Shown here: positions 1 to 36,406 of the stretch, piece by piece
How positions within the stretch are numbered: the first letter of the stretch is position 1
How the letters are laid out: every line of letters starts with the position of its first letter
DNA from: a virus
IMG/VR virus record: IMGVR_UViG_3300014499_000012
Location: 1-37,707 of that record
DNA: 37,707 nucleotides
Direction: 5' to 3' (one strand)
Program-made: the position numbers and the translations under genes
Notes under the pieces: generated by a model
Seen by the model: the letters and a program-made list of their open reading frames with translations, nothing else
Told to the model about the DNA's origin: nothing
Database searches by the model: none

Positions 1-252
1 GCCGGATACCCGGGCCGAGCCGGATACCCAGGCCGAGCCGGATACCCAGGCCGAGCCGGATACCCGGGCCAAGCCGGATACCTGGGCCACGCCGGATACC
101 CGGGCCGAGTCATATACCTGGGCCAAGCCGGATACCTGGGCCGAGCCATATACCTGGGCCAAGCCGGATACCTGGGCCGAGCCGGATACCTGGGCCAAAC
201 CGGATACCTGGGCCGAGCCGGATACCCGGGCCGAGCCGGATACCTGGGCCTC
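1..252. repeat. 18-bp tandem repeat, 14 copies
   Basis: Fourteen consecutive 18-bp units of consensus GCCGGATACCYGGGCCRA run from the window edge to 252 with only a few substitutions per copy and no length change. Each unit is one hexapeptide codon block of the beta-helix gene on the minus strand, so unit gain or loss keeps the frame. The array probably continues beyond the window. Confidence 0.95.
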
Positions 253-405
253 ATCAAATACCCAACATGCTCCTTCTTGGCTTAAATTTTCCTCTTTTTC
301 AATCCAACCACCTAATCGGCCATCAGACAATCGTTTTATTCTTTTTAGAGTTATAGTATCTATAGTCTTTGTTTCACCTGTAAACTCATACTTTTTAATG
401 CTCAT
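1..405 (-). CDS. Hexapeptide-repeat left-handed beta-helix protein, partial
   Basis: The frame opens at an ATG at 405, preceded by GGAGG nine bases upstream, and stays open to the window edge (135 residues seen, C-terminus missing). Residues 1-52 form a conserved head that includes YEFTGETK and GGWIEKEENLSQ. After that come about 14 hexapeptides of the form A-(Q/R/W)-V-(S/Y)-(G/D)-(S/L). This head plus AxVxGx hexads is a recognisable family of phage and prophage proteins predicted to fold as a left-handed parallel beta-helix (LpxA-like, three hexads per coil), so about 4.7 coils are visible. Function in phages is unknown; acyltransferase activity should not be assumed because no catalytic His is seen. 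It is the most distal visible gene of the leftward operon, one base after the preceding stop codon. Confidence 0.8.
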   Translation of the reverse strand, partial: MSIKKYEFTGETKTIDTITLKRIKRLSDGRLGGWIEKEENLSQEGACWVFDEAQVSGSARVSGSAQVSGLAQVSGSAQVSGLAQVYGSAQVSGLAQVYDSARVSGVAQVSGLARVSGSAWVSGSAWVSGSARVSG

Positions 406-406
406 C

Positions 407-628
407 TTATTTATCCTCCATAGAGTCCATAGCTTTATCTATAACAGCGCCTGGGTCTTCTTCGTGCCCACAATTAATACAGATACCGTGATCTCGTTCG
501 TCTGAATGGGGACAACAAGCCTGACAATCAGGGATACAACAATATGTTTTACCTGACTCGATTTCATTACCATCCTCACAGGTATTAGGGCCATCTAATT
601 GTTTTACATTTATAGTTGTTGTGCTCAT
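407..628 (-). CDS. Small Cys-rich putative zinc-binding protein
   Basis: A 73-residue acidic protein. The middle has two adjoining CxxC-type clusters, CCIPDCQACC (residues about 30-39) and CINC (about 50-53), with nearby His residues, consistent with a zinc ribbon or double knuckle. I do not recognise the family and no enzymatic motif is visible. The ATG directly follows the upstream stop (TAAATG), with AAGGGG eight to ten bases before it, so translation is probably coupled. It sits in the leftward accessory operon. Confidence 0.65.
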   Translation of the reverse strand: MSTTTINVKQLDGPNTCEDGNEIESGKTYCCIPDCQACCPHSDERDHGICINCGHEEDPGAVIDKAMDSMEDK

Positions 629-820
629 TTACTTTCCCCTTGATACTGGCAAGAATATTAGAAGGGGGGCTCCTTGGGTGGTAGAAATGTCCACCACACA
701 ATAATCTTTTTTACTTCTACCCATTGCTCTTATTTCTACCACTCTTCCAGCACCATAAGCTGTATTAATCTTAGAGCCTAAAGTAAATCGGTCCATTGAT
801 TCCTTCTTTGTTCGGTCCAT
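629..820 (-). CDS. Small protein with duplicated start region
   Basis: A 63-residue protein, or 55 if the second start is used. The body after MDRFTLGSKINTAYG reads like a small beta-rich domain (GAGRVVEIRAMG, DYCVVDISTT, PLLIFLPVSRGK) similar to the short SH3- or KOW-like barrels common among phage small proteins; this is an inference from pattern only. Two ATGs at 820 and 796 each have their own Shine-Dalgarno (GGAGGA and GAAGGA) because a 24-bp segment carrying RBS and start is duplicated in tandem. Confidence 0.6.
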   Translation of the reverse strand: MDRTKKESMDRFTLGSKINTAYGAGRVVEIRAMGRSKKDYCVVDISTTQGAPLLIFLPVSRGK

Positions 821-836
821 TGATTCCTCCTTTGTT
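789..836. repeat. 24-bp tandem duplication of an RBS and start codon
   Basis: Positions 789-812 and 813-836 are two 24-bp units differing at one base. On the minus strand each contains an SD-like purine run, then ATCAATGGACCG, so the gene below has two in-frame starts. Confidence 0.9.
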
Positions 837-854
837 TAATATAAATTTAAATTG

Positions 855-932
855 TTAAGCAATTATGTATTTACATAAACCAGTAGTGGCGTTTCCATTC
901 TCACCTGCTAAGATCTTGGTAAGATTACTCAT
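855..932 (-). CDS. Possible 25-residue microprotein
   Basis: A short frame (MSNLTKILAGENGNATTGLC, then KYIIA) starts at an ATG overlapping the stop of the lipoprotein gene as ATGA, an arrangement used repeatedly in this phage. No strong SD precedes it, so it would rely on coupling. It has no recognisable domain. It partly fills the gap between the lipoprotein gene and the next gene, and could equally be non-coding. Confidence 0.3.
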   Translation of the reverse strand: MSNLTKILAGENGNATTGLCKYIIA

Positions 933-1099
933 TTACATACCCCAGATGTGGTATAAATATTATACTGAGAATAGTGTGTACAGCTAGATTGACTTGGTGC
1001 ACTTGAGCACCCAGTAAGAACGCAAATAGCTATAAGAAAGCAAATATCTAAAAGTATAACCAACAAACATAGTCCAGACATAATTCGCTCTTTACTCAT
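929..1099 (-). CDS. Small lipoprotein
   Basis: A 56-residue protein. A basic N-terminus (MSKER) is followed by a hydrophobic stretch (residues 9-29) and a lipobox LTGC with Cys31 as the predicted lipidation site, then a 25-residue Ser/Thr/Tyr-rich mature peptide with two further Cys (40 and 55). This predicts a lipoprotein anchored in the inner or outer membrane. Phage lipoproteins of this size include o-spanins and superinfection-exclusion proteins; the mature part is not Pro-rich, so o-spanin is not favoured. The ATG overlaps the upstream stop by 8 bases (ATGAGTAA), with GGAGGA in range. Confidence 0.7.
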   Translation of the reverse strand: MSKERIMSGLCLLVILLDICFLIAICVLTGCSSAPSQSSCTHYSQYNIYTTSGVCK

Positions 1100-1301
1100 T
1101 ATTTTTTCCTCCTGCTATAAGGGTAAACCTATCGCGTCTTTCAGCCAATCTCCTGCATTGTGCCACTACAAATACCGTACACTCTTCCCAAGATCCTCTA
1201 CAAACTCCTTGGCCCCTACAAGTTACTAGCCAGGTATTCGCGGTGGGGGATACATTATTGTGTAAAATGAATGGACCAAACTTATATTTTTTATTACTCA
1301 T
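1092..1301 (-). CDS. Small hypothetical protein
   Basis: A 69-residue protein, MSNKKYKFGPFILHNN then a core with Cys residues (TCRGQGVCRGSWEECTVFV) and a basic stretch (CRRLAERRDRF). I do not recognise a family. The start ATG overlaps the stop of the upstream gene as ATGA (1298-1301), so the two are coupled in the leftward operon; its own 3' end overlaps the lipoprotein start. Confidence 0.6.
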   Translation of the reverse strand: MSNKKYKFGPFILHNNVSPTANTWLVTCRGQGVCRGSWEECTVFVVAQCRRLAERRDRFTLIAGGKNNE

Positions 1302-1498
1302 TTTACCCTCTTAATTAATTCATTCGGTACCCAACTTACCTCATCATTAGCAAACAACACCTTGGTCATACCAGCCACAGTCTCTAGTCCTAGGCCCCTT
1401 CGGCCTCGGTAGTACAGATGAAAGGTTCTGGGCTTGACTAAGACTTGTGTTGGTTTTGAATCACTTTGAGGTCCCACTAAAGCCCTAAAAACAGCCAT
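1298..1498 (-). CDS. Small hypothetical protein
   Basis: I take the start as the ATG at 1498 (MAVFRALVG) because AGGAGAG lies seven bases upstream; a longer frame from 1552 begins within the preceding hairpin and has no SD. The 66-residue product has a central RTFHLYYRGRRGLGLETVAG segment and no membrane span once the false extension is removed. No family is recognised. It is the first gene after a terminator-like hairpin and is coupled to the next gene by ATGA. Confidence 0.55.
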   Translation of the reverse strand: MAVFRALVGPQSDSKPTQVLVKPRTFHLYYRGRRGLGLETVAGMTKVLFANDEVSWVPNELIKRVK

Positions 1499-1550
1499 AA
1501 TTATCTCTCCTAGTAAGGCACATCCAATTAAATAACTTATAAAATGAAAC

Positions 1551-1600
1551 AAGCCCTACCTCCTATACAGTAGATGCTACCGTAAGGCTGTAGGGCTTGT
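1551..1600 (-). terminator. Hairpin, possible terminator or attenuator
   Basis: CAAGCCCTAC (1551-1560) and GTAGGGCTTG (1591-1600) are perfect 10-bp inverted repeats. The 30-base apical region contains a small nested hairpin (GTAG-ATG-CTAC). On the minus strand the stem is followed by TTTCATTTTA. It lies between the 1628-2131 gene and the next gene, so it probably divides the leftward operon into two expression levels. The large loop makes it weaker than a textbook terminator. Confidence 0.55.
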
Positions 1601-1627
1601 CAAGGAGGCAAATAAGGGGGAACTTAG

Positions 1628-2131
1628 TTACTTTACTTTTTCTTTTACTTCTTTAACTAACTCTTTAAATCTATCCTGTAGGTTGCCTGAAATCTGCTTC
1701 TCTGGGGGCGGAGCGTAACGTTTATTATTTAATATCCACTTTCCTACCCTAGCTAGCAGCTTATCTTCTTGATTATTCCTACTGGCCAACCAATCTTCTA
1801 CCTTAAGCTCCATCAACTGCTCTGGAGTCATAAGCATAAGCTCTATGCCGCGCTCTGTGAGTTTCTTTTCCTTTTCGATACGTCTAGCATCAACCAAGGC
1901 AATAGCCCTAAGCATTGACTCTTTGTTGGCATGCACTGTAACAATTGCATCCCCAACCCTATAAGACTCCCCTGGCTTAAAAGCTGTGTGCTTATCTAGT
2001 TGGTATTGGTGTCGGATGGTAACATTACCAACCTTATCTCCCAATCTGACGGAGGGCTTTGTACGGCCATCTTGAGTTTGTTCAGCCTTTTTAAATAAAC
2101 CTTTAAGAAAAGACTTAAGCTTTTGTAGCAT
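1628..2131 (-). CDS. Lys-rich hypothetical protein
   Basis: The start at 2131 (MLQKLKSFLKGLFKK) has GGAGG six bases upstream; a longer frame from 2158 has no SD. The 167-residue product begins with an amphipathic basic helix. A beta-rich middle follows (VRLGDKVGNVTIRHQYQL, SYRVGDAIVTVHANKE), then a long charged helical C-terminus with two heptad-like stretches. The family is not recognised. It overlaps the upstream gene by 17 bases. Confidence 0.6.
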   Translation of the reverse strand: MLQKLKSFLKGLFKKAEQTQDGRTKPSVRLGDKVGNVTIRHQYQLDKHTAFKPGESYRVGDAIVTVHANKESMLRAIALVDARRIEKEKKLTERGIELMLMTPEQLMELKVEDWLASRNNQEDKLLARVGKWILNNKRYAPPPEKQISGNLQDRFKELVKEVKEKVK

Positions 2132-2342
2132 CCTGTGCCTCCAGTACAATAACCTCAATCATTTGACTTGGCACAATACATTCTAAGCCATTGGCGAATG
2201 TTACAAATGCTCCAAGGGGGTGTAACGCCATTTTAATTCCGGGGTGAAATTGCTGGTTCAAGGTGCGTTGGCTTAGCTCTTTGTATCCTGGGATAAAGAG
2301 AGCCTTGGTTAATTGACAATGCAAGATATTTCTGGGTTTCAT
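2115..2342 (-). CDS. Small hypothetical protein
   Basis: A 75-residue protein with the segment HPGIKMALHPLGAFVTFANG followed by CIVPSQMIEVIVL. This looks like a compact beta domain of the kind seen in small phage proteins, but no function can be given. The start is TAATG-coupled to the capsid-like gene upstream, with AAGGAG at good spacing. Confidence 0.6.
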   Translation of the reverse strand: MKPRNILHCQLTKALFIPGYKELSQRTLNQQFHPGIKMALHPLGAFVTFANGLECIVPSQMIEVIVLEAQDATKA

Positions 2343-2650
2343 TAGTACTCCTTAAGGTATTTTTGGTTTAGTGCCCAGTCTAGAACAGTAGTTTGAGGTT
2401 TATTCATGTCCTTAAAAGCTACATACATTCCTTTAGGAAGTTCATCACTTGGTACAACTAGTGCCTTATTGCCTAATTGTATAGCCCTATATTCTATCTC
2501 TTCTGTTTTAATATCACAGTACTGCACAGAAGAACCAAGAGAATCCTCTAATGCTCTATAATCCTCAAAAGAGCATACTATTAAATGTATATGGAGACCT
2601 AAATTTAGTATAGCCTCTCTAATTGGAACATTATTATTAAATTGTTTCAT
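2342..2650 (-). CDS. Capsid-domain-like small protein
   Basis: A 102-residue protein. Residues 28-51 align without gaps to residues 325-348 of this phage's major capsid protein (30124-31449) with 14 of 24 identities: F..Y.ALE..LG..VQY.DIK..E. Flanks also fit: REAILNLG here versus EEGVVNALG there, and ALVVPSDELPKG here versus LTVYADRNQLPQQ there. So nearly the whole protein matches the C-terminal capsid segment of about 90 residues and lacks the N-terminal arm, E-loop region and inserted domain. It could be a decayed duplicate, a capsid-interfering or size-control protein, or a regulator binding the shell; the sequence alone does not decide. It is embedded in the small-gene operon far from the structural genes. 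Confidence 0.7.
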   Translation of the reverse strand: MKQFNNNVPIREAILNLGLHIHLIVCSFEDYRALEDSLGSSVQYCDIKTEEIEYRAIQLGNKALVVPSDELPKGMYVAFKDMNKPQTTVLDWALNQKYLKEY

Positions 2651-2970
2651 TTTATTTCCTTTAATAGTTTACTAGCAATGCCTAATTCTTCAGACCGCCA
2701 TGGGAGTTTAACGTAAACAAAAGGAGTTTGTCCATCTGTAAAAGCGTATCCTAATATAACGTCTGGGTCTTCTTCTAGACAAGCCACTAAGAAGTTATTC
2801 TTAGCAGACTCACTATGCATTAAGTCTTCTATCCGCTTATGTTGAAGCTTAGACCAGGTTGATCTTTTTAAAGTAGTTTTATTGCCTTTATCAAACCACT
2901 TATTTCTTAAATAAGTAGCAAAGATAAAGGCATGGTCAGACTCGACAATAGGCCTAATTTGAATCTTCAT
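2647..2970 (-). CDS. GNAT-like acetyltransferase family protein
   Basis: A 107-residue protein beginning IRPIVESDHAFIFATYLRNKW, a typical GNAT strand 1 and helix 1. It continues with VACLEEDPDVILGYAFTDG (strands 2-3) and PFVYVKLPWRSEELGIASKLL, which resembles strand 4 plus the acetyl-CoA pyrophosphate loop (R/Q-xx-G-x-A, here EELGIA). It ends soon after, so the C-terminal half of the GNAT fold is missing. Short GNAT-like proteins like this are common in uncultured phage genomes; the substrate is unknown. GAGAGG precedes the ATG and it overlaps its upstream neighbour by 17 bases. Confidence 0.6.
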   Translation of the reverse strand: MKIQIRPIVESDHAFIFATYLRNKWFDKGNKTTLKRSTWSKLQHKRIEDLMHSESAKNNFLVACLEEDPDVILGYAFTDGQTPFVYVKLPWRSEELGIASKLLKEIK

Positions 2971-3358
2971 TAAGCCTCTCCCTTAAGTATATAGAAAATT
3001 GACGTTTACCTCTAGTCAAGAGAGTTCTGGTAGTAAAAACAGAAATGTTTAAATCTTTAGCAGTCTCTCTAATAGACTTACCTTCAGCATGCAATTGCCA
3101 CACCTTCTTCTCCAACTCCCAGTAAGGCTCGTTTAGAAAGTGCTCAGCGTAGATGTAATAGTCCCTAATACCCTCAAAAGTACCCTCAGAACTTGGCTGC
3201 CTTACCTGGGAGCTATTGGTAGTCTTCCACTTAGGCCTAAGTAGGTTCAAGAAATCTGTGCCATGTCCTTGGTACTCAATATCATCAAATCCAGAATCCT
3301 TGAGCTTCTTATACCACTTATCCTGTAAACTCTTAAGTTGTTTCTTTGAGCGATGCAT
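2954..3358 (-). CDS. Helix-turn-helix phage protein
   Basis: A 134-residue protein. The N-terminus (KSLQDKWYKKLKDSGFDDIE) is a signature I associate with a widespread phage family. The C-terminal half, EKKVWQLHAEGKSIRETAKDLNISVFTTRTLLTR, is a clear helix-turn-helix of the sigma region 4 or resolvase type. It is probably a DNA-binding protein: a transcription regulator or a small-terminase-like factor. No other small terminase candidate is visible, but the gene is far from the large terminase, which weakens that reading. Confidence 0.65.
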   Translation of the reverse strand: MHRSKKQLKSLQDKWYKKLKDSGFDDIEYQGHGTDFLNLLRPKWKTTNSSQVRQPSSEGTFEGIRDYYIYAEHFLNEPYWELEKKVWQLHAEGKSIRETAKDLNISVFTTRTLLTRGKRQFSIYLRERLNEDSN

Positions 3359-3623
3359 TTATAGTAGTATCCTTTACAACTTGAGCAGACACTTGCATAG
3401 CAGCTGCCTTTACCAATTGTTTTGAGATAAACCTAGGAGATACGTAAAATACATTTGTAGGTAAATGTAAGATAAACTGTGCCGTAAGGTTTTTGGTACT
3501 TGTATTATATGGAAGACCCGATATATCTACAATTTCGCCTACCAAAGTATTAAACTCTGCCATACCTCTAGGCAAACGTTGTGGAATAAATCCCCAGATA
3601 AAGCTACTCAGCTTCTTTAACAT
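3333..3623 (-). CDS. Conserved phage hypothetical protein
   Basis: A 96-residue protein with the pattern LPRGMAEFNTLVGEIVDISGLP, AQFILHLPTNVFYVSPRFISK, then QLVKAAAMQVSAQVV. I recognise this as a small helical family frequent in podophage accessory regions, usually next to a coiled-coil gene as here. The function is unknown. AGGAG precedes the ATG by six bases; it overlaps the upstream gene by 20 bases and the HTH gene downstream by 26 bases. Confidence 0.65.
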   Translation of the reverse strand: MLKKLSSFIWGFIPQRLPRGMAEFNTLVGEIVDISGLPYNTSTKNLTAQFILHLPTNVFYVSPRFISKQLVKAAAMQVSAQVVKDTTINASLKETT

Positions 3624-3888
3624 CCGTAGCTCCTTTCTCCACCGTGGCCTTTACCTCTTCTTGAATTTTAATTTTAAGCTTGGCTGCCTCAACTCCCATT
3701 TTGTCAAGCTTCTGAGTTTGAGAGTTGATCTCACTATCAATAGCTGCAATATTTTCCTTAATCATATGTTTTCGGTAAAACATGTTACCTAGCTCAAACA
3801 GAGCTTGATTAAAGTCTTGTTGAAGCTGTTGAAGGTTTTGTGAAGGTTGTTCTGGATTAACATTTTGTTTCTTTTTAAAAGGAATCAT
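3604..3888 (-). CDS. Coiled-coil hypothetical protein
   Basis: A 94-residue, mostly helical protein: a basic start (MIPFKKKQN), a Gln-rich linker and a long heptad-patterned segment (LQQDFNQALFELGNMFYRKH, later DSEINSQTQKLDKMGVEAAK). It belongs to a small family often paired with the gene that follows it. It is the first gene of the leftward operon, about 35 bases below the predicted promoter, with GGAGAA before the ATG. Confidence 0.65.
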   Translation of the reverse strand: MIPFKKKQNVNPEQPSQNLQQLQQDFNQALFELGNMFYRKHMIKENIAAIDSEINSQTQKLDKMGVEAAKLKIKIQEEVKATVEKGATDVKEAE

Positions 3889-3925
3889 TAGTAATTCTCC
3901 ATCTGTAAAGGATACATCTACCTAT

Positions 3926-3954
3926 AATATAGCACCAGCTTTTACATAAGTAAA
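3926..3954 (-). promoter_or_regulatory. Leftward sigma70-like promoter
   Basis: On the minus strand TTTACT (3954-3949) is separated by 17 bases from TATATT (3931-3926), a good host-type -35/-10 pair. It would give an mRNA starting near 3919, about 30 bases before the first gene of the leftward operon. The rightward promoter on the other side shares the same TTTACT box and 17-base spacing. Confidence 0.55.
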
Positions 3955-3972
3955 GGGAATAATACAAATAAT

Positions 3973-3993
3973 TATCCCGCGATTCGCGGGGTA
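3973..3993. promoter_or_regulatory. GC-rich palindrome in the divergent region
   Basis: CCCGCG-ATT-CGCGGG (3976-3990) extends outward by A-T, T-A and one G-T pair. It stands out in an AT-rich stretch, is upstream of both divergent promoters and has no T-run on either side, so it is unlikely to be a terminator. An operator or cruciform-type site is more likely. Confidence 0.5.
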
Positions 3994-4031
3994 TTCATAC
4001 CTCTTATCTGTTACAGTTGTATAGGTCCGGA

Positions 4032-4066
4032 GCCGTAATGTCCAGGCTATCACATTAGTCAATACT
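4032..4066. repeat. 35-bp element, copy 1
   Basis: GCCGTAATGTCCAGGCTATC and the bases that follow recur at 36319-36354 in the same orientation with two mismatches and one inserted base. Both copies are intergenic and upstream of an operon start. On the minus strand both contain TTGACT. A protein-binding or promoter role is inferred. Confidence 0.75.
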
Positions 4067-4078
4067 AAATTATTATTC

Positions 4079-4107
4079 TTTACTAGTAAAGTGTTTTCTT
4101 TTATTAT
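4079..4107 (+). promoter_or_regulatory. Rightward sigma70-like promoter
   Basis: TTTACT (4079-4084), 17 bases, then TATTAT (4102-4107). The predicted transcription start falls at about 4113-4115, on the ATG of the first rightward gene, which also lacks an SD, so the first message may be leaderless. Confidence 0.5.
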
Positions 4108-4113
4108 ATATGT

Positions 4114-4302
4114 ATGCATAAACTATCTAGAGAGGCTAGGTTAGCTTATTTAATAGAATTATTGAATAAAAGGTTTAGGGCCCATAGGTCAACAGTTTCT
4201 GATATAAAGAGAATAAACTCCTTGAGGATAATTTATTCAGCTGAAAAAGACTATAAATCTGGATTTTTAGTAAACAACAAGTTTATAAAGAGAATAAAAT
4301 GA
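4114..4302 (+). CDS. Small basic hypothetical protein
   Basis: A 62-residue Lys/Arg-rich protein (MHKLSREARLAYLIELLNKR and on), predicted mostly helical. No family is recognised; its charge suggests nucleic-acid binding. It is the first gene of the rightward replication operon. No SD precedes the ATG, which coincides with the predicted transcription start. The stop overlaps the next start as ATGA. Confidence 0.55.
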   Translation: MHKLSREARLAYLIELLNKRFRAHRSTVSDIKRINSLRIIYSAEKDYKSGFLVNNKFIKRIK

Positions 4303-5231
4303 AAAGGATAATAACTAATAAGTTAAACCTCCCAGAAGCTTATGTATTTTCTGTTCAAAATGACCCATATGACCCAGATGATGGGGGAGAGAGAAGTGAT
4401 TACACTATAACAGGCCTATTAAAGCCTCCAAGAGCAGCACAAATTGAAAGAACCAATACACTTGAAGTAGACGCAGCAGATATGTTGGCTCTTTTACAAG
4501 GCCAGCTTATCCATTATATGTTAGAGAGGGCGAAACCAGAGTTAGAGGCTCGGGGTTTTATTATTGAGAAAAGGTTTTATAAAAAATACTCAGTAAACAT
4601 GCCAGATGGAACTATTAGGATATTTAATATATCTGCTAAGATAGATGTATTCGATCCTGTTAATGGTAGGCTATCCGACTATAAATATACTTCAACCTCT
4701 TCAGCTTCCTATGGACTCAAGGAGGAGCACAGGCTACAAGTCAATTTCCAAAGTATGCTTGTTCGTAATGCAGGGTTCAAGGTTGTTCAAGCTGAGACAG
4801 TGATGTTAATGAAAGACTGGTCCCCTATGAAGTTATTTGGAAGTTATCCAACGGCCCCTACTGCCCTCCATCCTGTGCCATTTATGAAAGATGATGAGAT
4901 CGATCATTATATAATAGAACGCATTAAAGCCCATGAGGCAGCCAAAGTTACCCTGCCCCTATGCTCGGATGAAGAAAAATTTAATAGACCTTCTTTTGCA
5001 GTTATTAAGGGAGGGCAAGCAAAAGCAGTAAGAGTTTTTAAGTCTGAAAAAGAGGCTAATACATTTATTTCTGCTATTGACTTCATCTCCTTTGACAAGT
5101 ATTCTATTGTAAAGAGACCTGGAACAAACATTAATTGCCTTCACTATTGTCCCGCTCGTTCCATATGTGAACAGGCTAAGGCAGATAGACCGGCAGTTAT
5201 TCTGGATGAAGACGGGTTTGTAAAAGTATGA
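4299..5231 (+). CDS. PD-(D/E)XK nuclease, RecB/Cas4-like
   Basis: A 310-residue protein with the ordered motifs of the RecB/Cas4 exonuclease fold. GQLIHYMLE carries the motif I His (H72). KIDVFDPVNGRLSDYKYT has the acidic D116 and the D127-x-K129 pair. EEHRLQVNFQSML is the QxxxY-like helix (Q147). A C-terminal CLHYCPARSIC supplies three Cys, as in the iron-sulfur end of Cas4 and AddB, but no partner Cys is seen near the N-terminus, so a cluster is uncertain. Proteins like this process DNA ends during phage replication or recombination. It is the second gene of the rightward operon, followed by an ATGA-coupled microprotein. Confidence 0.85.
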   Translation: MKRIITNKLNLPEAYVFSVQNDPYDPDDGGERSDYTITGLLKPPRAAQIERTNTLEVDAADMLALLQGQLIHYMLERAKPELEARGFIIEKRFYKKYSVNMPDGTIRIFNISAKIDVFDPVNGRLSDYKYTSTSSASYGLKEEHRLQVNFQSMLVRNAGFKVVQAETVMLMKDWSPMKLFGSYPTAPTALHPVPFMKDDEIDHYIIERIKAHEAAKVTLPLCSDEEKFNRPSFAVIKGGQAKAVRVFKSEKEANTFISAIDFISFDKYSIVKRPGTNINCLHYCPARSICEQAKADRPAVILDEDGFVKV

Positions 5232-5317
5232 TAAATTATATACTGATAAATGTGTTGTGTATATTAGGAATATTATTATTATCTTTTATGTTCTATACAC
5301 AAGGGTGTATAGTATAA
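5228..5317 (+). CDS. Possible 29-residue membrane microprotein
   Basis: An ATG overlapping the nuclease stop (ATGA) opens a 29-residue frame, MINYILINVLCILGILLLSF and a short tail, which is a single hydrophobic helix. The stop lies inside the TATAAT box at 5313-5318. Overlap coupling and the composition support translation, but AT-rich intergenic DNA can give such frames by chance. Confidence 0.35.
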   Translation: MINYILINVLCILGILLLSFMFYTQGCIV

Positions 5318-5318
5318 T
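5293..5318 (+). promoter_or_regulatory. Palindromic operator with TATAAT box
   Basis: CTATACACAAGGGTGTATAG (5293-5312) is a perfect 8-bp inverted repeat around a 4-base centre, directly abutting TATAAT (5313-5318). No good -35 hexamer is present 16-18 bases upstream, so the palindrome may bind a repressor or an activator. The start site would fall at the 5' edge of the structured RNA. Confidence 0.6.
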
Positions 5319-5319
5319 A

Positions 5320-5505
5320 AATAGTAGCGGCGTGGAGCAAAGTCCTATATGGTAATGCGAAGGGTATTGGTTGGAGTCGTTTCCAACATGTAAGCTAACC
5401 TTACAAGTTCACCCGAGGACACGCAAGCGATGATCCCCTATACTCGATATATGGTGGGGAAATACAAGCTGTCGAGGTAGCCAGAATCAAGCCTGGCCTA
5501 CTATT
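5320..5505 (+). ncRNA. Structured RNA of unknown class
   Basis: Hand folding gives a closed, multi-branched structure. The terminal helix is AATAGTAG (5320-5327) with CTACTATT (5498-5505), stacked on a hairpin GCCAG/CTGGC (5480-5497). Inside are GCGT/ACGC (5330-5333 with 5421-5424) and GTCC/GGAC (5342-5345 with 5417-5420). Two hairpins follow: GTTGGA/TCCAAC (5370-5387) and TGTAAG/CTTACA (5389-5405). A last one, TCCCC/GGGGA (5434-5460), has a CTCGA in its apical region that can pair with TCGAG (5472-5476) as a pseudoknot. The block is GC-richer than its flanks, has no ORF, and sits between a TATAAT box and the SD of the ssDNA-binding protein gene. It may be a cis-acting leader, a riboswitch or ribozyme, or an independent RNA. 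It matches no class I can name. Confidence 0.65.
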
Positions 5506-5534
5506 AAAGTTTAATTAAAAAACAAGGAGACCTA

Positions 5535-6005
5535 ATGCCTAAAAATAATACAAAGTCCTTCGCGGAAGAAGGATTGGAAGCAGTTCTAGAAGAAACCCCA
5601 CAAGCTGAAGCTGCAGTTGAGACGCTTCAGCCGGTAGATGGAGAAGATGAGTTTAAGCAGGTTGGAGGGCTTGAGCCAGTTGCTTATTTCCTTCGTACTT
5701 CAGCCCCTAAGAAGCCTCAGAAAAGCCCATTCAAGATTCTCCAAACTGGAGAAACTATCTTGGGCACCTACGAACGTAGCTTCATTTCTGGTAAATTCCA
5801 GAAGCCTAGTTACTTGGTTCGTCTTGCCACTGGTGAGCTCATTGGGTTGCCTTCTGCGGGTAGCTTAGACAAGGCAATGGCTAAGCTCGCTGAAGGCTCC
5901 AAGGTTAAGATTACCTATGATGGAATGCGAGCCATTAAGGGCGGACAATGGGAAGGCACTGATGCCCATGTGTTCACTGTGTTTGGAAGCAAGTTGAAAG
6001 CTTAG
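5535..6005 (+). CDS. OB-fold single-stranded DNA-binding protein
   Basis: A 156-residue protein: an acidic, disordered N-terminus (residues 1-50), then a compact beta-rich domain. The segments FKILQTGETILGTYERSFIS, KPSYLVRLATGELIGLP, GSLDKAM and GSKVKITYDGMRAIKGGQ, then HVFTVFG, follow the five-strand OB pattern I associate with phage single-strand binding proteins. It would coat unwound DNA for the polymerase encoded next. GGAGACCTAATG gives a clear start. Two structured RNA segments flank the gene, suggesting expression control. Confidence 0.7.
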   Translation: MPKNNTKSFAEEGLEAVLEETPQAEAAVETLQPVDGEDEFKQVGGLEPVAYFLRTSAPKKPQKSPFKILQTGETILGTYERSFISGKFQKPSYLVRLATGELIGLPSAGSLDKAMAKLAEGSKVKITYDGMRAIKGGQWEGTDAHVFTVFGSKLKA

Positions 6006-6012
6006 TAGTTTG

Positions 6013-6160
6013 GAAAAGCAGGACAACTCTGAGGCTTTTCTCCCGTTAGGCCGTTTGCCGAGGCAAGGGTTATATATCGGCTTCCTCGTCACCTGGGGGT
6101 AAATAAGTGGTGAGGTTGGCTGGCTTCTAAGCCCGTGATCCCGTGGGTTGCCATTACGGG
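6013..6160 (+). ncRNA. Structured leader of the DNA polymerase gene
   Basis: The 174 bases between the ssDNA-binding gene and the polymerase SD hold five consecutive hairpins. They are GAAAAGC/GCTTTTC (6013-6040); GCCG/CGGC (6050-6081) enclosing TTGC/GCAA (6055-6066); TCACC/GGTGA (6089-6113); GGCT/AGCC (6122-6133); and CCCGT/ACGGG (6140-6160). The last is followed by TATATTTTT (6162-6170) and then the SD GGAGGA. ACGGG could instead pair with an earlier CCCGT at 6132-6136, disrupting the GGCT/AGCC hairpin. The layout is that of a leader ending in an attenuator-like hairpin; the ligand or factor is unknown. Confidence 0.5.
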
Positions 6161-6179
6161 GTATATTTTTGGAGGATTT

Positions 6180-8243
6180 ATTAAAGTAACAGATATACAA
6201 GACCAAGTGCTCTATACAGCTGCTGCTGTTGAGCAATTCTTTACATCTATAGATGCCGATTGGCCTCTAGTAGCTGACGTAGAGACTTTTGGGACTGACC
6301 CGGCTAATGGGAAGCTCCTGGGCCTGGCTTTGTGTTCCGTTGCTTCTCCTTTAAAACCTGTTTATATTGCCCTACAATGGTATGAGTTTAATACCTCTAC
6401 CTGGAGGGTTAATAATGAATTTGAATTGATTATAACGTCAATTAAAGCTCATTTAAGCTATTGTGAATTAGTGGGCCATAATTATGCTTATGATAAGTTA
6501 TGGCTTGATACAGTTCTCAAGATTGAGACTAGCTGGCATGCCTGTACTCGCCTTATGTGGCACATGGCATCTGCCCCCTCTGGCCCCAAAGGCTATGGAC
6601 TTAAAGACGCCCAAATTGAAGTCCTAGGCTGGGATAAGCGTGGAAGTGATGAACTAGAAGCGCAGGTCCAAGCCAGAGGGGGAAAGCTAAAGGAAGGTGG
6701 ACATTATTTAGCAGATGTGGGTGTCTTGGGGCATTATGCATGTTTAGATGGTAGCTCCACAGCGATGCTATATAATGAGTTAAAAAGATTTTTTGATCTG
6801 TATGATTATTGGTGGATGCTTGAAAAGATGGTAGCCTATTCCTGGCTGCTTCAGGTTAACACTACTGTTGGCATACGTGTGGACCTTGACCGTCTTGAGA
6901 AGACTATTGAGACATTACAGGACACTAAGGCTGCTTATGGGGCAGCTTTTCAAGAGCTAGCCAGTTCCCACATCACCCGCCTAGAGCGCATATGGCGGGA
7001 TGATAGAGCGGCTAAATACACCCTGCCAGCAGCTAAGGAGCGTTTCTTGTCTGACTGGAGCATGCAAAAGAAGTTTAATTTGTCGTCTGACAAGGATAAG
7101 AGAGAATTATTCTACACCTCGATGGGGTTGCCAGTGGTTGTGGAGACCGATGGGGGTAAGGGGTCTACAAGTCTAGACGGACTGCGACTCGCGATTCGCG
7201 ATTCACATAAAGAAGACTTAAAGGAATTATTGGAGATTTATGAAGAAGCAGAGTCTTGTGATACACTTCTTAGCAGTTTTGCTAAACCTTGGCTTGCTGC
7301 TAGCACTAGCGGACGCCTTAACCCACGATTCAACCCATGTGGAACTGTGTCTTATCGGTTGTCTGGGTTTAAGCCGTATCTGCTTAATGCTCCTTTCTCG
7401 GAATATGAGCTAATGTCATGCCTAACCTGTGATGAAGGTTGGGTTGGATTACATGCCGATTTTGTTTCTGTTGAGCCGGCCGTCACGGCTCATTACAGTC
7501 AGGACCCGTCCCTCCTTAAAGTGTTCCGGGATGGGTTGGGAGATGTTTACCTGGACCTTGCCTTGACTCTTTTTCCTCGTGATGAGGCCTTGAAGGCTGA
7601 ATATAACCCCTACCTCCCGGTCACTTCGGCTGTTAAGTCTGAGTTTAAAAAGGTTAGGGATATTGGAAAGCTTATTCATTTGGCAGTACAGTATACCGGC
7701 AAGGAATATACGGTACAGAAAAACTTGGATTATGCAGGGTACCCTACTACTTTAGAGGAAGCCCGTACCATGGTCGCTGACTACTGGAAGCATTTTCATA
7801 AGGTCGCTGTAATGAATGAGACCTTATTCAGGATGTTTGGTAGGAAGGGATACCTGCGAAACGCAGTAGGACGGGTTATCAGGGTTCCCACCCATGTTGA
7901 CATCCCGATGCGAGACGGAACCATCTGGCATAAGGAGATACCTAGGTTTAAGGATTTGCCTAGCCGCTTCATTCAGAGCAGTGCCCATGATATATTAAGC
8001 TTTTGGGTGTTGATTATTGCCCGTAAAGTTAAGGAACAAGGGCTTAAAGCCAAGCCAGTTATTATTGATTGCCATGACAGTACCAGTTGGCAGGCCCCCC
8101 AGGATGAGATTAATGCTTTAGAAGTTATCTTTAAAGAAGCCCTGACAGAGTTGAATCAGGGGATTAGACTCAGTGTACCGGTTAAAGTGGAAATGAAGAG
8201 ATTTCATACTTTAGCTGGCTTGAAAGGCCAGGAGGATTTATGA
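6180..8243 (+). CDS. Family A DNA polymerase with proofreading domain
   Basis: 687 residues from a probable ATT start at 6180. GGAGGATTT precedes it, exactly as it precedes ATG at 8240; the frame upstream to GTG 6135 has no SD and lies in hairpins. The exonuclease domain is intact: D33/E35 (VADVETFG), N101/D105 (GHNYAYD), Y186/D190 (YACLD). Polymerase motif A is DFVSVEP (D427, E432). Motif B is R493...K497...L501...Y505, where the usual Phe or Tyr of the O-helix is Leu. Motif C is CHDS (H632, D633, S634), where the usual HDE glutamate is Ser. Both catalytic Asp remain, so the enzyme is probably active but divergent. It should be the replicative polymerase, working with the adjacent primase and ssDNA-binding protein. 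Confidence 0.92.
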   Translation: MKVTDIQDQVLYTAAAVEQFFTSIDADWPLVADVETFGTDPANGKLLGLALCSVASPLKPVYIALQWYEFNTSTWRVNNEFELIITSIKAHLSYCELVGHNYAYDKLWLDTVLKIETSWHACTRLMWHMASAPSGPKGYGLKDAQIEVLGWDKRGSDELEAQVQARGGKLKEGGHYLADVGVLGHYACLDGSSTAMLYNELKRFFDLYDYWWMLEKMVAYSWLLQVNTTVGIRVDLDRLEKTIETLQDTKAAYGAAFQELASSHITRLERIWRDDRAAKYTLPAAKERFLSDWSMQKKFNLSSDKDKRELFYTSMGLPVVVETDGGKGSTSLDGLRLAIRDSHKEDLKELLEIYEEAESCDTLLSSFAKPWLAASTSGRLNPRFNPCGTVSYRLSGFKPYLLNAPFSEYELMSCLTCDEGWVGLHADFVSVEPAVTAHYSQDPSLLKVFRDGLGDVYLDLALTLFPRDEALKAEYNPYLPVTSAVKSEFKKVRDIGKLIHLAVQYTGKEYTVQKNLDYAGYPTTLEEARTMVADYWKHFHKVAVMNETLFRMFGRKGYLRNAVGRVIRVPTHVDIPMRDGTIWHKEIPRFKDLPSRFIQSSAHDILSFWVLIIARKVKEQGLKAKPVIIDCHDSTSWQAPQDEINALEVIFKEALTELNQGIRLSVPVKVEMKRFHTLAGLKGQEDL

Positions 8244-8287
8244 CTAAAGCTTACTTGGGGCTTATAATGATTGTGAAAAAAATCTAG
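8240..8287 (+). CDS. Possible 15-residue peptide
   Basis: An ATG overlapping the polymerase stop as ATGA, with a strong GGAGG four bases upstream, opens a 15-codon frame (MTKAYLGLIMIVKKI). The SD is convincing, the peptide is tiny and hydrophobic, and no function can be suggested. The remaining 49 bases before the next gene hold a small hairpin (AGCAT/ATGCT). Confidence 0.3.
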   Translation: MTKAYLGLIMIVKKI

Positions 8288-8336
8288 AGCATAGATTAAT
8301 GCTATTAACAATTATATATGAGATGGGAGATAAGGT

Positions 8337-8654
8337 ATGACATTCAGGGAAGCATATAACACTGGGAAAGTATTTGCTATAGTGTATAATACTTATAGTT
8401 ATATTTATTACAGAAGCTGCACTGTCGCAGAACATGGCAGGGGCGGGCAAACCATACACCCCGCAGTGGATTTGAACACATATAACCAAAGCGAACTGGA
8501 CACGGAAGACCCTAATCTGGAAATACTGGAACACTCGGTTCTTAGTTATGTTAAATCCCCTACTATGAGTCCCAGCATTGATAGTGTAGGGGACTGTACT
8601 TGTGATTTCTACTCAGTAATTCTAAGGTCCGGGTGTAAGTGTGGAGGTAAATAA
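8337..8654 (+). CDS. Hypothetical protein with Cys-rich C-terminus
   Basis: A 105-residue protein beginning MTFREAYNTGKVFAIVYNTY, which resembles small phage proteins with an N-terminal FxxAYxxG pattern. The end, CTCDFYSVILRSGCKCGG, has two CxC pairs (four Cys) that could bind zinc. There is no recognised function. The stop forms TAATG with an ATG in another frame; the primase start lies five bases further. Confidence 0.55.
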   Translation: MTFREAYNTGKVFAIVYNTYSYIYYRSCTVAEHGRGGQTIHPAVDLNTYNQSELDTEDPNLEILEHSVLSYVKSPTMSPSIDSVGDCTCDFYSVILRSGCKCGGK

Positions 8655-8658
8655 TGAT

Positions 8659-9441
8659 ATGGACAGCTTTATCTATCGGATTGGTTCTAGCGACAATATT
8701 CTTGGTCGTCCTCCCCGGTTTTACTCTAGTACTGACCTTGCTGGTAGCGGTTGTAGATTCGCTTCAGTCTATGCAGTCCGCAAAGAAGATGCAGAAGCAA
8801 TTGAAACCACGTCCGGCACTGCGGCTGGTTTCAAAGGGATCGTGTGGTCACAAAAACTGTGGGTCGACTTCGATACATACGAAGCAGCCTCAGAAGCCGA
8901 AAAAACCTTAGATAAGTTAGGATTAGGATATGTCGTTTATGATACAGGCGGGCGTGGCAAGCATATTGGGATTAATAGGGATACTAAACCTAGCCATACT
9001 TTGCCAGGACAAGACAAGGCTTGGGTACAAGCTAACTTGGTTGGGGCGGATCTTAGCCTGTATTGGCACCTTCATCTTATTCGGCTGCCGGGAGCAGTCC
9101 ATGAAAAGACCGGTGGGATCAAAAAGCTTATTAAGCGGAAAGAAGGGAATAGTGTACAGCTCGGGCAGCCTAAAGAGAACGAGGCAGTCTCAGTTTCTGA
9201 GGTCACTACATCACCCGGGGCCCGTAATTCCATATTTGGGACGTGGTCGGTAATGTCAAATATCACCCCCACTGGGCACAGGAGGCAGCTTGTAGAGCTC
9301 GCTGTGGCCCTTCAAAGGGATGTTGGTGTAACAACTGAGGAGGCCACTTGGGTGCTACTGGAAGTGAATCGCGGGTTTAATGTACCAAGGGATGTTGATG
9401 AGATAGAGAGAATTGTGGCATGGGCCTATGAAACAAAATGA
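8659..9441 (+). CDS. Archaeo-eukaryotic-type primase (AEP)
   Basis: 260 residues from the ATG at 8659 (MDSFIYRIGSSD). Motif I hhDxD is WVDFD (D70, D72). DTGGRGKHIGI (95-105) supplies motif II with H102. RLPGAVHEKTG (142-152) follows as the third conserved block. The C-terminus, RRQLVELAVALQRDVGVTTE and on, resembles the PriCT-type helical domain of primase-helicases. It would synthesise primers for the family A polymerase encoded upstream. No helicase domain follows. Start choice is uncertain: GGAGG lies 11 bases upstream and is better spaced for an ATG at 8654 in another frame; GTG 8641 is also in frame. Confidence 0.75.
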   Translation: MDSFIYRIGSSDNILGRPPRFYSSTDLAGSGCRFASVYAVRKEDAEAIETTSGTAAGFKGIVWSQKLWVDFDTYEAASEAEKTLDKLGLGYVVYDTGGRGKHIGINRDTKPSHTLPGQDKAWVQANLVGADLSLYWHLHLIRLPGAVHEKTGGIKKLIKRKEGNSVQLGQPKENEAVSVSEVTTSPGARNSIFGTWSVMSNITPTGHRRQLVELAVALQRDVGVTTEEATWVLLEVNRGFNVPRDVDEIERIVAWAYETK

Positions 9442-9478
9442 TCCAGGACTAGTAATAACTTATATATGAAGGAAGGTT

Positions 9479-9745
9479 ATGAAAAAATTAATTAATGTTC
9501 AAGAAGTCGAAGGCGAAGGTTTGGAAGCCCTATTAGGAGAAAAGGTTACTATTTTCTGTATGAATTATATTTATACGGGGAAGCTAATTGGAGTAAATAA
9601 AACATGTGTTTTATTAGAAGACCCCGCCATTGTTTACTCAACTGGAGACTTTGCTAGCAAGGTATACTCAGATGTCCAGTCTTTACAAGTAAAGACATTC
9701 TATGTACAAACCTCTTCTATTGAAAGCTTTGGAGTACTTAAGTAA
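9479..9745 (+). CDS. Small conserved phage protein, possibly Sm-like
   Basis: An 88-residue protein. The core GLEALLGEKVTIFCMNYIYT, then GKLIGVNKTCVLLEDPAIVYSTG, ending with YVQTSSIESFGVL, is a pattern I recognise from many phage genomes. The spacing (TGKLIGVNKTCVLLED) resembles an Sm-like strand order, but this is inference only. GAAGG lies just before the ATG. It sits between the primase and the HNH gene. Confidence 0.6.
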   Translation: MKKLINVQEVEGEGLEALLGEKVTIFCMNYIYTGKLIGVNKTCVLLEDPAIVYSTGDFASKVYSDVQSLQVKTFYVQTSSIESFGVLK

Positions 9746-9874
9746 ATGAGAGCATTTAAACATAAATACAGGTCGAGGGCGTGGTCGTGGTGGGTGTCGG
9801 GGTCGGGGTGGGGGTCGTGGTCGGGGTCGGGGTCGGGGTCGGGGTCGTGGTCGCGGTCGCAGTCGGGGTCATGA
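9746..9874 (+). CDS. Ser-Gly/Ser-Trp repeat peptide
   Basis: An ATG directly after the previous stop (TAAATG) opens a 42-residue frame whose stop overlaps the HNH start as ATGA. The first 12 residues are basic (MRAFKHKYRSRA). The rest are Ser alternating with Gly or Trp, encoded by the G-rich repeat. Both ends are coupled to neighbours, which argues for translation, but no SD is obvious and the repeat could generate the frame by itself. It may act only as a translational relay to the HNH gene. Confidence 0.35.
   Translation: MRAFKHKYRSRAWSWWVSGSGWGSWSGSGSGSGSWSRSQSGS
9776..9870 (+). repeat. GGGGTC hexamer repeat, quadruplex-prone
   Basis: About 95 bases are made almost wholly of GGGGTC, GGTCGT and related hexamers, with many G3-G5 runs separated by two or three bases on the plus (RNA-like) strand. 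It ends exactly at the HNH ATG. The composition differs sharply from the flanks (about 45% GC), consistent with recent hexamer expansion. G-quadruplex formation is inferred. Confidence 0.85.
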
Positions 9875-30123: not shown

Positions 30124-31449
30124 TTATGCGCTTAAGTTAACACGGAGGTTCAGACCAGGCGCATTACACGTATAGTTGTAGTATGTTCCAATTCGGACTT
30201 CCAACGCATCGCTATTACCAACACGGAGACCTTCAAGTCCTTCAAGACCATAGGTCAAGATGTGTGGGGCTTTATCTAGCGACCGAAGCTTCCAAGTGTC
30301 CATCGTCAAGCAGAGAGCTTGCTGAGGCAACTGGTTGCGATCCGCATACACAGTCAAGTAGCCATATGCGCTGTGGAAACGAATTCCTTCAAACGCAACA
30401 TCAGCTTCTTGATGCTTAATATCAACATATTGGACCTTTGCTCCGAGAGCATTTTCAAGGGCCGTGTAACTGTTGAAGTTAAGAACCATTACGTCTGGGT
30501 CCGCGCCTTCACGGTTAGCGAATCCAAGAGCATTAACAACACCTTCTTCAATTGTATAAGAGGCTGCATTGAAACGGAGTCCGCCCAAACGGGTAGGATC
30601 TGTTCCACGGTTAACTCCCCAGTAGCTATCGGTAGCGATGTTGGGGTCCGTTAAAGGAATCCAAGCTCCGAAGCCGGAAGCTGCCAAGTAAGAGCCGGTC
30701 TGTCCAATAGGACCAAAACCCGATCCACCTGCAGGAGGAATGTCACCCTGTACAGTGACTGCGTAAGTAGCAAGCCAATCTGTTTGAGGGGCACCCTGTG
30801 CTACAGTGAAAAGGACCGTTCCGGTATCTCTCTGGACACCAGTGATGGTTCCGAGGTCAGGAGTAGCGGGGGTTCCCGTGGGAACTACTGCTCCACCATC
30901 CGTAGCGGAAGCTTGGATGGTCATACCAACTTCAAAGTTAACAACCTGCTGAGGATTGCTTAACGTGAACTGATAGGTAGTACCAGAATTCAAGGTAACG
31001 CCACCAGCTCCGATAAAGCCGCGAGTGGCAGTTCCCGAACCAAACTGTTCAAACGCCATGTTGTTGGACAGGTTCTTAATTCCGCCGTCCATCTCACGCT
31101 TCATTTCATCAACAAAGCTTCCAGCATTCGAGCGAGTCTGTTCAATAAGCAAGTTCGTGATCGTTACGAGTTGATAATCTTGGATGATGTAAACGAAAAA
31201 CGAATCGTATTGGTTTGGTGTCTGATTGCCTTGGGCATTCAGAAACGTGTGCGAACGACCCTGGGGATCGCCGAACTGAATAGGACACGGAATGTACTTA
31301 CCAGAGAGACCATCAACCGATTCATCCTTGGGGATGAGTGACATCGAAGGATTTTTGGCGTACACTAAGTCCTTCATAAAGGACTGGTCATCAATATACA
31401 ATTCCTTAAGAACTGAAATTGACGATGTACTTGTTGCAAAAGTTGCCAT
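30124..31449 (-). CDS. Major capsid protein
   Basis: 441 residues from the ATG at 31449 (MATFATSTSSISVLKELYID), 7 bases after the scaffold stop; a frame from 31500 lies inside the scaffold gene and is excluded. An N-terminal arm and E-loop-like region (FMKDLVYAKNPSMSLIPKDE) is followed by a helix (TNLLIEQTRSNAGSFVDEMK). An inserted beta domain (about 140-265) follows, then a C-terminal HK97-type core (DPDVMVLNFNSYTALENALG, LTVYADRNQLPQQALCLTMD). Position after scaffold and before a strong terminator fits high-level expression. Residues about 299-388 are matched by the small protein at 2342-2650. Confidence 0.85.
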   Translation of the reverse strand: MATFATSTSSISVLKELYIDDQSFMKDLVYAKNPSMSLIPKDESVDGLSGKYIPCPIQFGDPQGRSHTFLNAQGNQTPNQYDSFFVYIIQDYQLVTITNLLIEQTRSNAGSFVDEMKREMDGGIKNLSNNMAFEQFGSGTATRGFIGAGGVTLNSGTTYQFTLSNPQQVVNFEVGMTIQASATDGGAVVPTGTPATPDLGTITGVQRDTGTVLFTVAQGAPQTDWLATYAVTVQGDIPPAGGSGFGPIGQTGSYLAASGFGAWIPLTDPNIATDSYWGVNRGTDPTRLGGLRFNAASYTIEEGVVNALGFANREGADPDVMVLNFNSYTALENALGAKVQYVDIKHQEADVAFEGIRFHSAYGYLTVYADRNQLPQQALCLTMDTWKLRSLDKAPHILTYGLEGLEGLRVGNSDALEVRIGTYYNYTCNAPGLNLRVNLSA

Positions 31450-34821: not shown

Positions 34822-34826
34822 AAAGT

Positions 34827-35072
34827 TTAGACATCAGTGGGGCCGGGACCAGTTCCATTAATATAAGCCTCAACTTCTTCCATTGTAGGCATATCATCTG
34901 GGAGGCCTGGGTCCTCTTCAGGGGCTACGAGCTCTGATTGAGCTTTACGGGTATTTATGGGTGCGTTTTCGGATAATATTAACTGTAGGTCAGTTGAATT
35001 GTACTGCAGGACACCTTGGCTACGTAGAAGCTTTAGGAGCTCCTTAAGGGCTTTAATGTCTGGTAATTGCAT
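34827..35072 (-). CDS. Small hypothetical protein
   Basis: An 81-residue protein: a helical N-terminus (IKALKELLKLLRSQGVLQYN) and an acidic Pro-rich C-terminus ending in EEVEAYINGTGPGP. I recognise similar small proteins directly upstream of podophage portals, with no known role. The start overlaps the preceding stop as TAATG. Confidence 0.6.
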   Translation of the reverse strand: MQLPDIKALKELLKLLRSQGVLQYNSTDLQLILSENAPINTRKAQSELVAPEEDPGLPDDMPTMEEVEAYINGTGPGPTDV

Positions 35073-35335
35073 TATATACCATCAATTCTAGTATTCCCAT
35101 AATAGCTACAGATATAACCAGAGAAACGACCACCTAAATTGGATCTAAGTAGTTGTAACTTTAAGGGGTTTATTTTGAGAGAAGTGGGAGTATGGCCACG
35201 TCTACCAAGCCAGTTAAGGACAATAACAATACGTTCCTCAATTGACAGAGATAAAACTTGTTGCCTGGTTAACTTAGGAAAGGGGATAGAAGCATTACTA
35301 TCCTCACATCGGCACCTTCCAAAAAATAATCCCAC
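35072..35335 (-). CDS. Small hypothetical protein, GTG start
   Basis: An 87-residue protein starting at GTG (35335), with AGAGG five bases upstream, inside the end of the previous gene. The middle reads LTRQQVLSLSIEERIVIVLN, WLGRRGHTPTSLKINPLKLQ; predicted helical with a basic end. No family is recognised. It is one base from the upstream stop and TAATG-coupled downstream. Confidence 0.55.
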   Translation of the reverse strand: MGLFFGRCRCEDSNASIPFPKLTRQQVLSLSIEERIVIVLNWLGRRGHTPTSLKINPLKLQLLRSNLGGRFSGYICSYYGNTRIDGI

Positions 35336-35336
35336 T

Positions 35337-36047
35337 TTAACCTCTGCGGCGGTTCTTACGATCCTTTAGAATCTGAGCAACTAAGCTAGCATCACTGGTG
35401 TCATGCTCATCATCAGTCATGGTGTGGGCATACTCTAGATCAAGGCCTCTTGAATCTCTGCCATCTTCCATGGGAACAGGCTTTTCGTCAGAGTCATTGG
35501 TTTCATACATTTCATCGGTTTCATCCGTGGGACCATGTAACGTGCCAACTCCAATAGACTTATAGTCAGGCTTTACTGGGACAGAACCACCCTTTGCAAA
35601 CTTTCTAAGCTTCCGGTCTTTCATGATCTCGGCGGCTAGGGATAGGCTTTCAGATACCTTAGGGAGGTCTTTCTCAGAATCAGAATAATCTTCTTGTACA
35701 TTCCCATCTTCTTGAGGCATATACATATGGTCCTGTTTTCCCGGGTATTCATCCTCCGAGTCACCAGGACGGGCTGACTTCTGCTTTAGGGGAGCCATAT
35801 CATCAACCATCCCGCCTTCTGCATACATAGCAAAGTCGGAGTTATCCTCAGCTTGGGTCTGCCCACCGTGAGCTACACATTTGCCCCCAATATCCGTACA
35901 ATCAGGGCACATTCCGCCCTTGGACATGTTCTTACGTTTCATACCGTAGGCAATTGCTAGAGCTTGTTTTTGGGGCTTACCGTTTTTCATTTCAGTCTTT
36001 AGGTTCTTCTTAAAGGCCTTGTCAGAGCCGGATTTGACTAAGGGCAT
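35337..36047 (-). CDS. Conserved protein with GG tags, structural region
   Basis: A 236-residue protein. The start MPLVKSGSDKAFKKNLKTEM and KPQKQALAIAYGMKRK form a family I recognise at this position in many uncultured phages. A short Cys-rich piece follows (MCPDCTDIGGKCVAHGG), then an acidic disordered body with four tags of the A/S-charged-G-G form (MSKGGM, VAHGGQ, YAEGGM, FAKGGS). The function is unknown; a virion or assembly role fits the location before the portal. It is the first gene after the 36.05-36.4 kb control region. Confidence 0.6.
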   Translation of the reverse strand: MPLVKSGSDKAFKKNLKTEMKNGKPQKQALAIAYGMKRKNMSKGGMCPDCTDIGGKCVAHGGQTQAEDNSDFAMYAEGGMVDDMAPLKQKSARPGDSEDEYPGKQDHMYMPQEDGNVQEDYSDSEKDLPKVSESLSLAAEIMKDRKLRKFAKGGSVPVKPDYKSIGVGTLHGPTDETDEMYETNDSDEKPVPMEDGRDSRGLDLEYAHTMTDDEHDTSDASLVAQILKDRKNRRRG

Positions 36048-36149
36048 GGGTTATACCTTAATAATTCAATGTAGGGGCTTTTAGGGCCCTTTAAAGGGAA
36101 TACTGTAGATTAACTCTACCCAATGTTGTCAAATGTGAGCTTATCCCTT

Positions 36150-36171
36150 ACAAAGATAGAAATGTGTGGGA
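36150..36171 (-). promoter_or_regulatory. Candidate late promoter motif, copy 2
   Basis: On the minus strand TCCCACACATTTCTATCTTT plus GT, matching the 30.0-kb copy at 20 of 22 positions. It is about 100 bases upstream of the first gene of the portal-capsid block. Confidence 0.55.
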
Positions 36172-36354: not shown

Positions 36355-36406
36355 CTACACCCTTCCATTTAATAAAGCAATACTTATTTTATATAATTGT
36401 CAATTA

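Follow-up and report, generated by a model that had tools for sequence, protein, structure and literature searches.

Both accessory homologues of capsid proteins and proteins that redirect capsids are known. P4 Sid and SaPI CpmA/CpmB redirect capsid size or interfere with capsid formation, and they are scaffolds or capsid binders; as small accessory proteins whose target is capsid assembly they illustrate one possible role for the protein described here, but they are not pieces of a major capsid protein (MCP). Fv1 and enJSRV Gag are capsid-derived proteins turned against the assembly or entry of a relative; compared with our protein they are eukaryotic and much larger, and serve as an analogy only. 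Passages of published reports describe the MCP as a trigger of CapRel (PMC9712102, PMC11578894) and of staphylococcal Thoeris (PMC12578639), and the first of these also mentions Lit, PifA and T5/Pycsar. As given in such passages, the MCP-ThsB1 subcomplex of Thoeris requires that the E-loop be intact and ThsB2 recruitment depends on the P-loop (PMC12578639), and CapRel is touched both by a capsid protein (the MCP Gp57 of SECPhi27) and by a separate small protein (Gp54 of Bas11; PMC9712102, PMC11578894). In a passage of the 2024 CapRel paper Gp54 is called unrelated to the MCP, whereas the small protein reported here is an MCP homologue. No description of stand-alone capsid pieces in tailed phages was found in the open-licence literature, which we searched by titles and abstract beginnings and which omits most subscription papers, and detached single MCP segments, found repeatedly at different sites within one phage family, appear to be new.

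The window, i.e., the whole stretch of 37,707 nt that was analysed (IMG/VR record IMGVR_UViG_3300014499_000012), belongs to an uncultivated phage. Its accessory operon carries a gene for a 102-aa protein, P0001 (Table 1, in which L numbers are loci of related phages; G numbers below are related records). We are highly confident that P0001 is the detached A-domain core (helix-strand-helix-strands) of an HK97-fold MCP, very divergent, probably of foreign lineage, seated in a variable slot of the operon, and one case of a family-wide habit. A sequence-only reading had described the gene as intact, with a good start, and coupled to its neighbours in an accessory operon, and the ORF and its overlaps bear this out: it begins with ATG, has AAAGGA upstream, shares 4 nt (ATGA) with the preceding gene, and ends in a TAA stop that has 1 nt in common with the next ATG.

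The same reading had noted 14 of 24 identical positions, without gaps, between P0001 residues 28-51 and the MCP, with flanks in the same order. The count is exact, and the matching MCP segment begins at residue 342 of the ORF-list product P0002 (TTG start), which is residue 325 counted from the ATG. The flanks are indeed collinear, since hhalign against 40 MCPs aligned P0001 residues 8-89 (E 1e-9), and the proposed profile alignment to capsid families also succeeded, in that an MCP profile built without P0001 recovered it (E 4.7e-7, residues 18-61 corresponding to profile positions 299-344). By BLASTP, P0001 and the MCP of the window shared 15 of 31 residues (E 4e-8 as a single comparison, 7.9e-5 in a search of the ORF set). 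When 36 related records were searched with P0001, matches occurred in 24, of which 23 were MCPs and one was the copy of P0001 in L001. Chance as the cause of the similarity was rejected, because the non-capsid ORFs compared reached at most 10/24 ungapped identity to the 24-residue core and shuffled ORFs gave 0 matches at E 1e-3. Homologues in phages with dissimilar capsids, which would have spoken against the reading, were not found: the sole copy was that of L001, the same virus, and the other P0001 matches inspected were MCPs. Pfam, PHROGs and PADLOC returned no family for P0001, and NCBIfam gave one at chance level. Judged by its sequence, P0001 is a stand-alone segment of a capsid protein, and the observation is a real one.

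The MCP of the window, whose phage belongs to a podovirus-like family, matched PHROG 9953 'major head protein' (E 2.9e-4) and NCBIfam capsid_maj_Podo (E 3.7e-18, below the curated cut-off). Its AF2 model (pLDDT 82, pTM 0.81) had SU10, Pa223, HK97 and other phage capsids as the best PDB matches in Foldseek; a profile search of PDB sequences gave no match. In this model the segment of about residues 298-381, counted from the ATG, consists of H300-313, E320-323, H325-338, E341-346, E351-360, E363-369 and E377-381, and from HK97 topology we take it to be the A-domain. The AF2 model of P0001 (pLDDT 59.7, pTM 0.52) consists of H10-17, E23-27, H28-41, E43-48, E53-59, E63-68 and E76-78, so that the order H-E-H-E-E-E-E in this low-confidence model is that of MCP residues 300-381. 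Foldseek with the same low-confidence model returned nothing significant; moreover, the alignment behind it was otherwise made up of capsid segments, which biases the model topology towards capsid, and the A-domain fold of P0001 is therefore supported by sequence, without independent support from the model. P0001 is homologous in sequence to the HK97-fold MCP and has the same predicted order of helix, strand, helix and strands, but it covers only the A-domain part; it lacks the N-arm, E-loop, spine helix and P-domain and, unlike an HK97-fold MCP, it cannot alone form a shell subunit. Nor is its gene placed behind the scaffold-like gene of the head module; it sits in the accessory operon upstream of terminase.

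Locus L001 comes from the same virus: window positions 1-9873 are 99.8% identical to L001:946-10818, with an identical P0001 gene, and positions 34065-37707 are 100% identical to L001:12814-16456. The 1,995 bp that join the two ends of the window are absent from it and are supplied by L001; they hold the beginning of terminase and a repeat protein. The genome is thus circularly permuted, and with the window ends bridged the MCP gene is reached about 10.5 kb downstream of the P0001 gene on the same strand, so the distance of nearly 28 kb given earlier was an artefact of the contig ends. The tandem repeats at window:1-260 (L001:10414-11496) leave two frames open, giving ORFs of 360 and 239 aa in L001. 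Among 27 non-identical records of the operon, the two genes that flank P0001 abut or overlap in 20 and stand 182-482 nt apart in seven, the virus of the window (as L001) being one of these seven. The nearest relative (G017/L093) lacks the P0001 gene, its two flanking genes sharing 4 nt, and in G004/L081 the slot is occupied by a different gene of 159 aa. The P0001 gene is thus sporadic and was found in one virus only.

That P0001 corresponds to the phage's "own" capsid protein could not be upheld. Over 91 aligned columns the own MCP shared 24 identical positions with P0001 and ranked 58 of 87, and the MCP of L221 shared the most (33). In a scan with query A11 the MCP of L215 was 39% identical over P0001 residues 27-100 (E 7e-10), and the MCPs of L218, L221, L225 and L227 matched from residues 6-8 onward, the own MCP covering less. 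A tree of 88 A-domain rows placed P0001 on a very long branch nearest the L228-type MCPs, without starred support, and grouping with own-type MCPs gave p 0.06 in the AU test, i.e., was not firmly rejected. The donor probably belonged to a different MCP lineage from that of this phage.

Detached MCP segments are recurrent in related phages as separate accessory ORFs away from the MCP gene, as identified by homology searches. They fall into three types: the N-terminal arm with the base of the E-loop, the A-domain, and a zinc ribbon with the C-terminal half (Table 1). Read from the MCP model, the N-terminal pieces would hold the arm and the first E-loop strand. Profile searches of whole records (47 + 30) gave clear pieces in 8 of 77, namely G001, G010, G015, G037, G061, G065, G076 and G077, which together with the window make seven distinct viruses (G001 counted with the window, and G076 with G077, whose protein is identical); many of the 77 records are fragmentary, so that absence is weak evidence, and further loci were screened only in the retrieved stretch. 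The window itself holds a second, weaker candidate with the A-domain helix-strand-helix, whose 87-aa product is 38% identical to the L106:15949-16209 protein (E 6.5e-6); this pair aligned with the MCP by hhalign at E 1e-5, and the candidate alone reached only E 0.61 against the MCP profile. The zinc-ribbon/MCP genes of L197 and L198, which share synteny and 33% identity, lie between putative RecA-like and putative DNA polymerase genes, together with a short ORF. We read their CxxC...CxxC N-terminus as zinc-ribbon-like. The same type of N-terminus (CxxC...GKEF(Y/F)YCRxC) is also present in L207:9986-10465, L209:1936-2547 and L211:403-639, fused to non-MCP sequences; joined to an MCP half in two phages and to other partners in three, it looks, from these sequences, like a mobile module. 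L106:3417-3710 and L090:18861-19142 each extend over the beginning of a downstream gene that contains cysteine motifs, and a weak HNH match, below cut-off, was obtained only for L106:3023-3430.

Table 1. Positions of the P0001 gene, its surroundings, the MCP gene and the related pieces (unprefixed positions are those of the window).
Feature	Position	Strand	Basis or remark
Accessory operon	407..4119	-	upstream of packaging and head genes, same strand, ends bridged by L001
Conserved gene next downstream in the operon, 75 aa, bounding the slot on one side	2115..2342	-	slot survey
Stand-alone MCP A-domain segment, P0001, 102 aa	2342..2650	-	BLASTP, profile, hhalign
Conserved gene next upstream in the operon, 107 aa, bounding the slot on the other side	2647..2970	-	used as query A1
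MCP gene	30124..31449	-	ATG at 31449; ORF list starts at TTG, 31500; homologous segment roughly 30286-30579
Second, weaker candidate piece, 87 aa, A-domain helix-strand-helix, near portal gene	35072..35335	-	relative L106:15949-16209
N-terminal piece	L076:11491-11865 (same as L015:2582-2956)		residues 86-122 vs L022 MCP 25-64, 52%, E 4e-9
N-terminal segment	L090:18861-19142		BLASTP/profile screens
N-terminal segment	L106:3417-3710		BLASTP/profile screens
A-domain piece	L106:15949-16209		44-47% to MCP over 45 aa, E 7e-5 to 1e-4
N-terminal segment	L194:225-548 = L195:3994-4317		E 3.6e-7
Zinc-ribbon-like N-terminus with MCP C-terminal half	L197:5361-6173, L198:5279-5968		jointly hhalign E 1.4e-25
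MCP intervening-sequence regions	L024:10097-11566, L026:10216-10429, L021:8285-8486, L007:3686-3893, L174:9341-9994		

Other gene families were screened in the same manner with 13 family profiles against 15,339 non-redundant ORFs, counting ORFs of up to 300 aa that lay away from a full copy. The MCP gave eight short ORFs, or seven after L018:125-931, an MCP truncated by the contig start, was dropped, and portal gave 0. Seven short terminase ORFs proved to be cut genes, each starting within 325 nt of a sequence edge and holding the C-terminal part, which left 0. With portal and, after inspection, terminase both at 0, generic fragmenting of all genes was rejected. Shuffled ORFs in this screen gave 0 for all 13 families, and an earlier BLASTP screen had found five pieces of the MCP and none of portal, terminase, 31457 or 27908. 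Families near or under 300 aa (31457, 27908, 29239, 4299 and most of 26555) yield whole orthologues in the profile screen and are uninformative there. The records had been fetched mostly via the MCP, but portal and terminase were amply covered as well, portal, terminase and MCP having 105, 80 and 113 hits in the screen, respectively. Several further candidates were set aside: L226 and L254 are frameshifted MCP genes; the short ORFs of L174, L178 and L282 lie at the MCP start; L201:6186-6389 (GLQDWLP...DNYFGVNRS), next to portal, is suggestive only (profile E 0.083-0.91; hhalign E 1e-4 over 13 columns); and L199:4689-5312, a cysteine-rich protein with C-terminal TNGTNPFIALIPKK (NPFIALIPKK motif), was weak (E 0.0067) and not counted. 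No match came from tblastn searches of INPHARED in which P0001, MCP, portal, an L221-type MCP and the zinc-ribbon/MCP gene served as queries; DNA polymerase matched 1007 INPHARED records, so the search itself works. A scan of genome contigs with the MCP likewise found no relative.

Intervening sequences, about 185-215 nt long (654 nt in L174), break up the MCP genes of relatives at several codons, with up to four in one gene (L023/L024). Their conserved blocks resemble group I intron P7, and Rfam returned no intron family for them (eight sources at gathering thresholds, one 2-kb stretch at E <= 1). MCP residue 77, the site of the L026 intervening sequence, lies close to where several of the N-terminal pieces stop.

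The pieces might be debris or cases of gene birth, i.e., MCP fragments spread by illegitimate recombination, perhaps via intron-homing breaks, and of no selected function. Besides the intervening sequences carried by the MCP genes of this family, this account could draw on the fact that P0001 spans the sites 353/354 and 364/365 and the N-terminal pieces cover 49/50 and 77/78 (P0002 numbering), and on the very long branch of P0001; we nevertheless consider it distinctly unlikely, as the ORFs are intact and coupled, synteny and 33% identity link the two zinc-ribbon/MCP genes, portal and terminase are without comparable pieces after inspection, and the similarity survives in protein and not in DNA. 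Indeed, the P0001 gene showed no significant similarity to MCP genes at the DNA level, and within the 24-residue core only 2 of the 14 identical residues use the same codon (40 of 72 nt identical), which suggests that protein sequence was kept, although the synonymous change may lie mostly on the MCP side. The recurring pieces suggest repeated recruitment to separate use, perhaps as decoys or blockers. As regards the phage's own shell, the sequence-only reading had considered size control, and a piece setting the size or timing of the own capsid would agree with the predicted MCP sub-domain topology of P0001, with the position of the operon, which precedes the packaging and head genes and shares their strand, and with the other pieces that adjoin the portal gene. 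We regard such a modulator as very unlikely, because the gene is sporadic: its absence from the nearest relatives, including the close relative L093 (portal 96%, MCP 88% over the part available), speaks against a needed role in shell assembly, and the similarity to the own MCP is low.

Our best explanation as a whole, that a detached piece of foreign lineage acts as a capsid mimic in conflict, has in our judgement somewhat less than an even chance of being right. For its functional part, we infer only tentatively that P0001 is a capsid mimic used in conflict, and among such roles we favour a decoy for capsid-sensing immunity; P0001 would then be expressed, fold, meet a binding partner and bring a benefit to the phage. 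Such a decoy would offer one MCP recognition surface without the remaining MCP, could occupy a capsid-detecting host sensor and leave its activation incomplete, and in a Thoeris-type case a single piece would be unable to bridge two sensor subunits. Against the decoy, the A-domain differs from the regions implicated in passages of the cited reports for CapRel (P-domain) and for Thoeris (E-loop and P-loop); the A-domain is not named there as a contact for either, which weighs against this specific analogy. Ranked second among conflict roles is a dominant-negative blocker that co-assembles with, or caps, the MCP of a co-infecting relative and poisons its shell. A blocker nearer to other-lineage MCPs (33/91) than to its own (24/91) would spare the own shell, and the gene is sporadic and lies in an insertion slot; however, the AU test (p 0.06) did not firmly reject an own-type donor and the N-terminal pieces elsewhere are not clearly closer to foreign MCPs, and we consider the blocker unlikely. 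In its widest form the decoy reading would have the family repeatedly detach MCP recognition segments as accessory decoys that blunt capsid-sensing immunity, the set of pieces reading out the watched surfaces, which we think rather doubtful.

As capsid proteins are triggers of several bacterial immune systems, separate copies of its segments would point to the capsid surfaces that are recognised. If the pieces are decoys, they would represent a simple counter-measure to capsid sensing; alternatively, they may reflect capsid-level warfare between phages, and under either reading they are small, ready-made and testable proteins.
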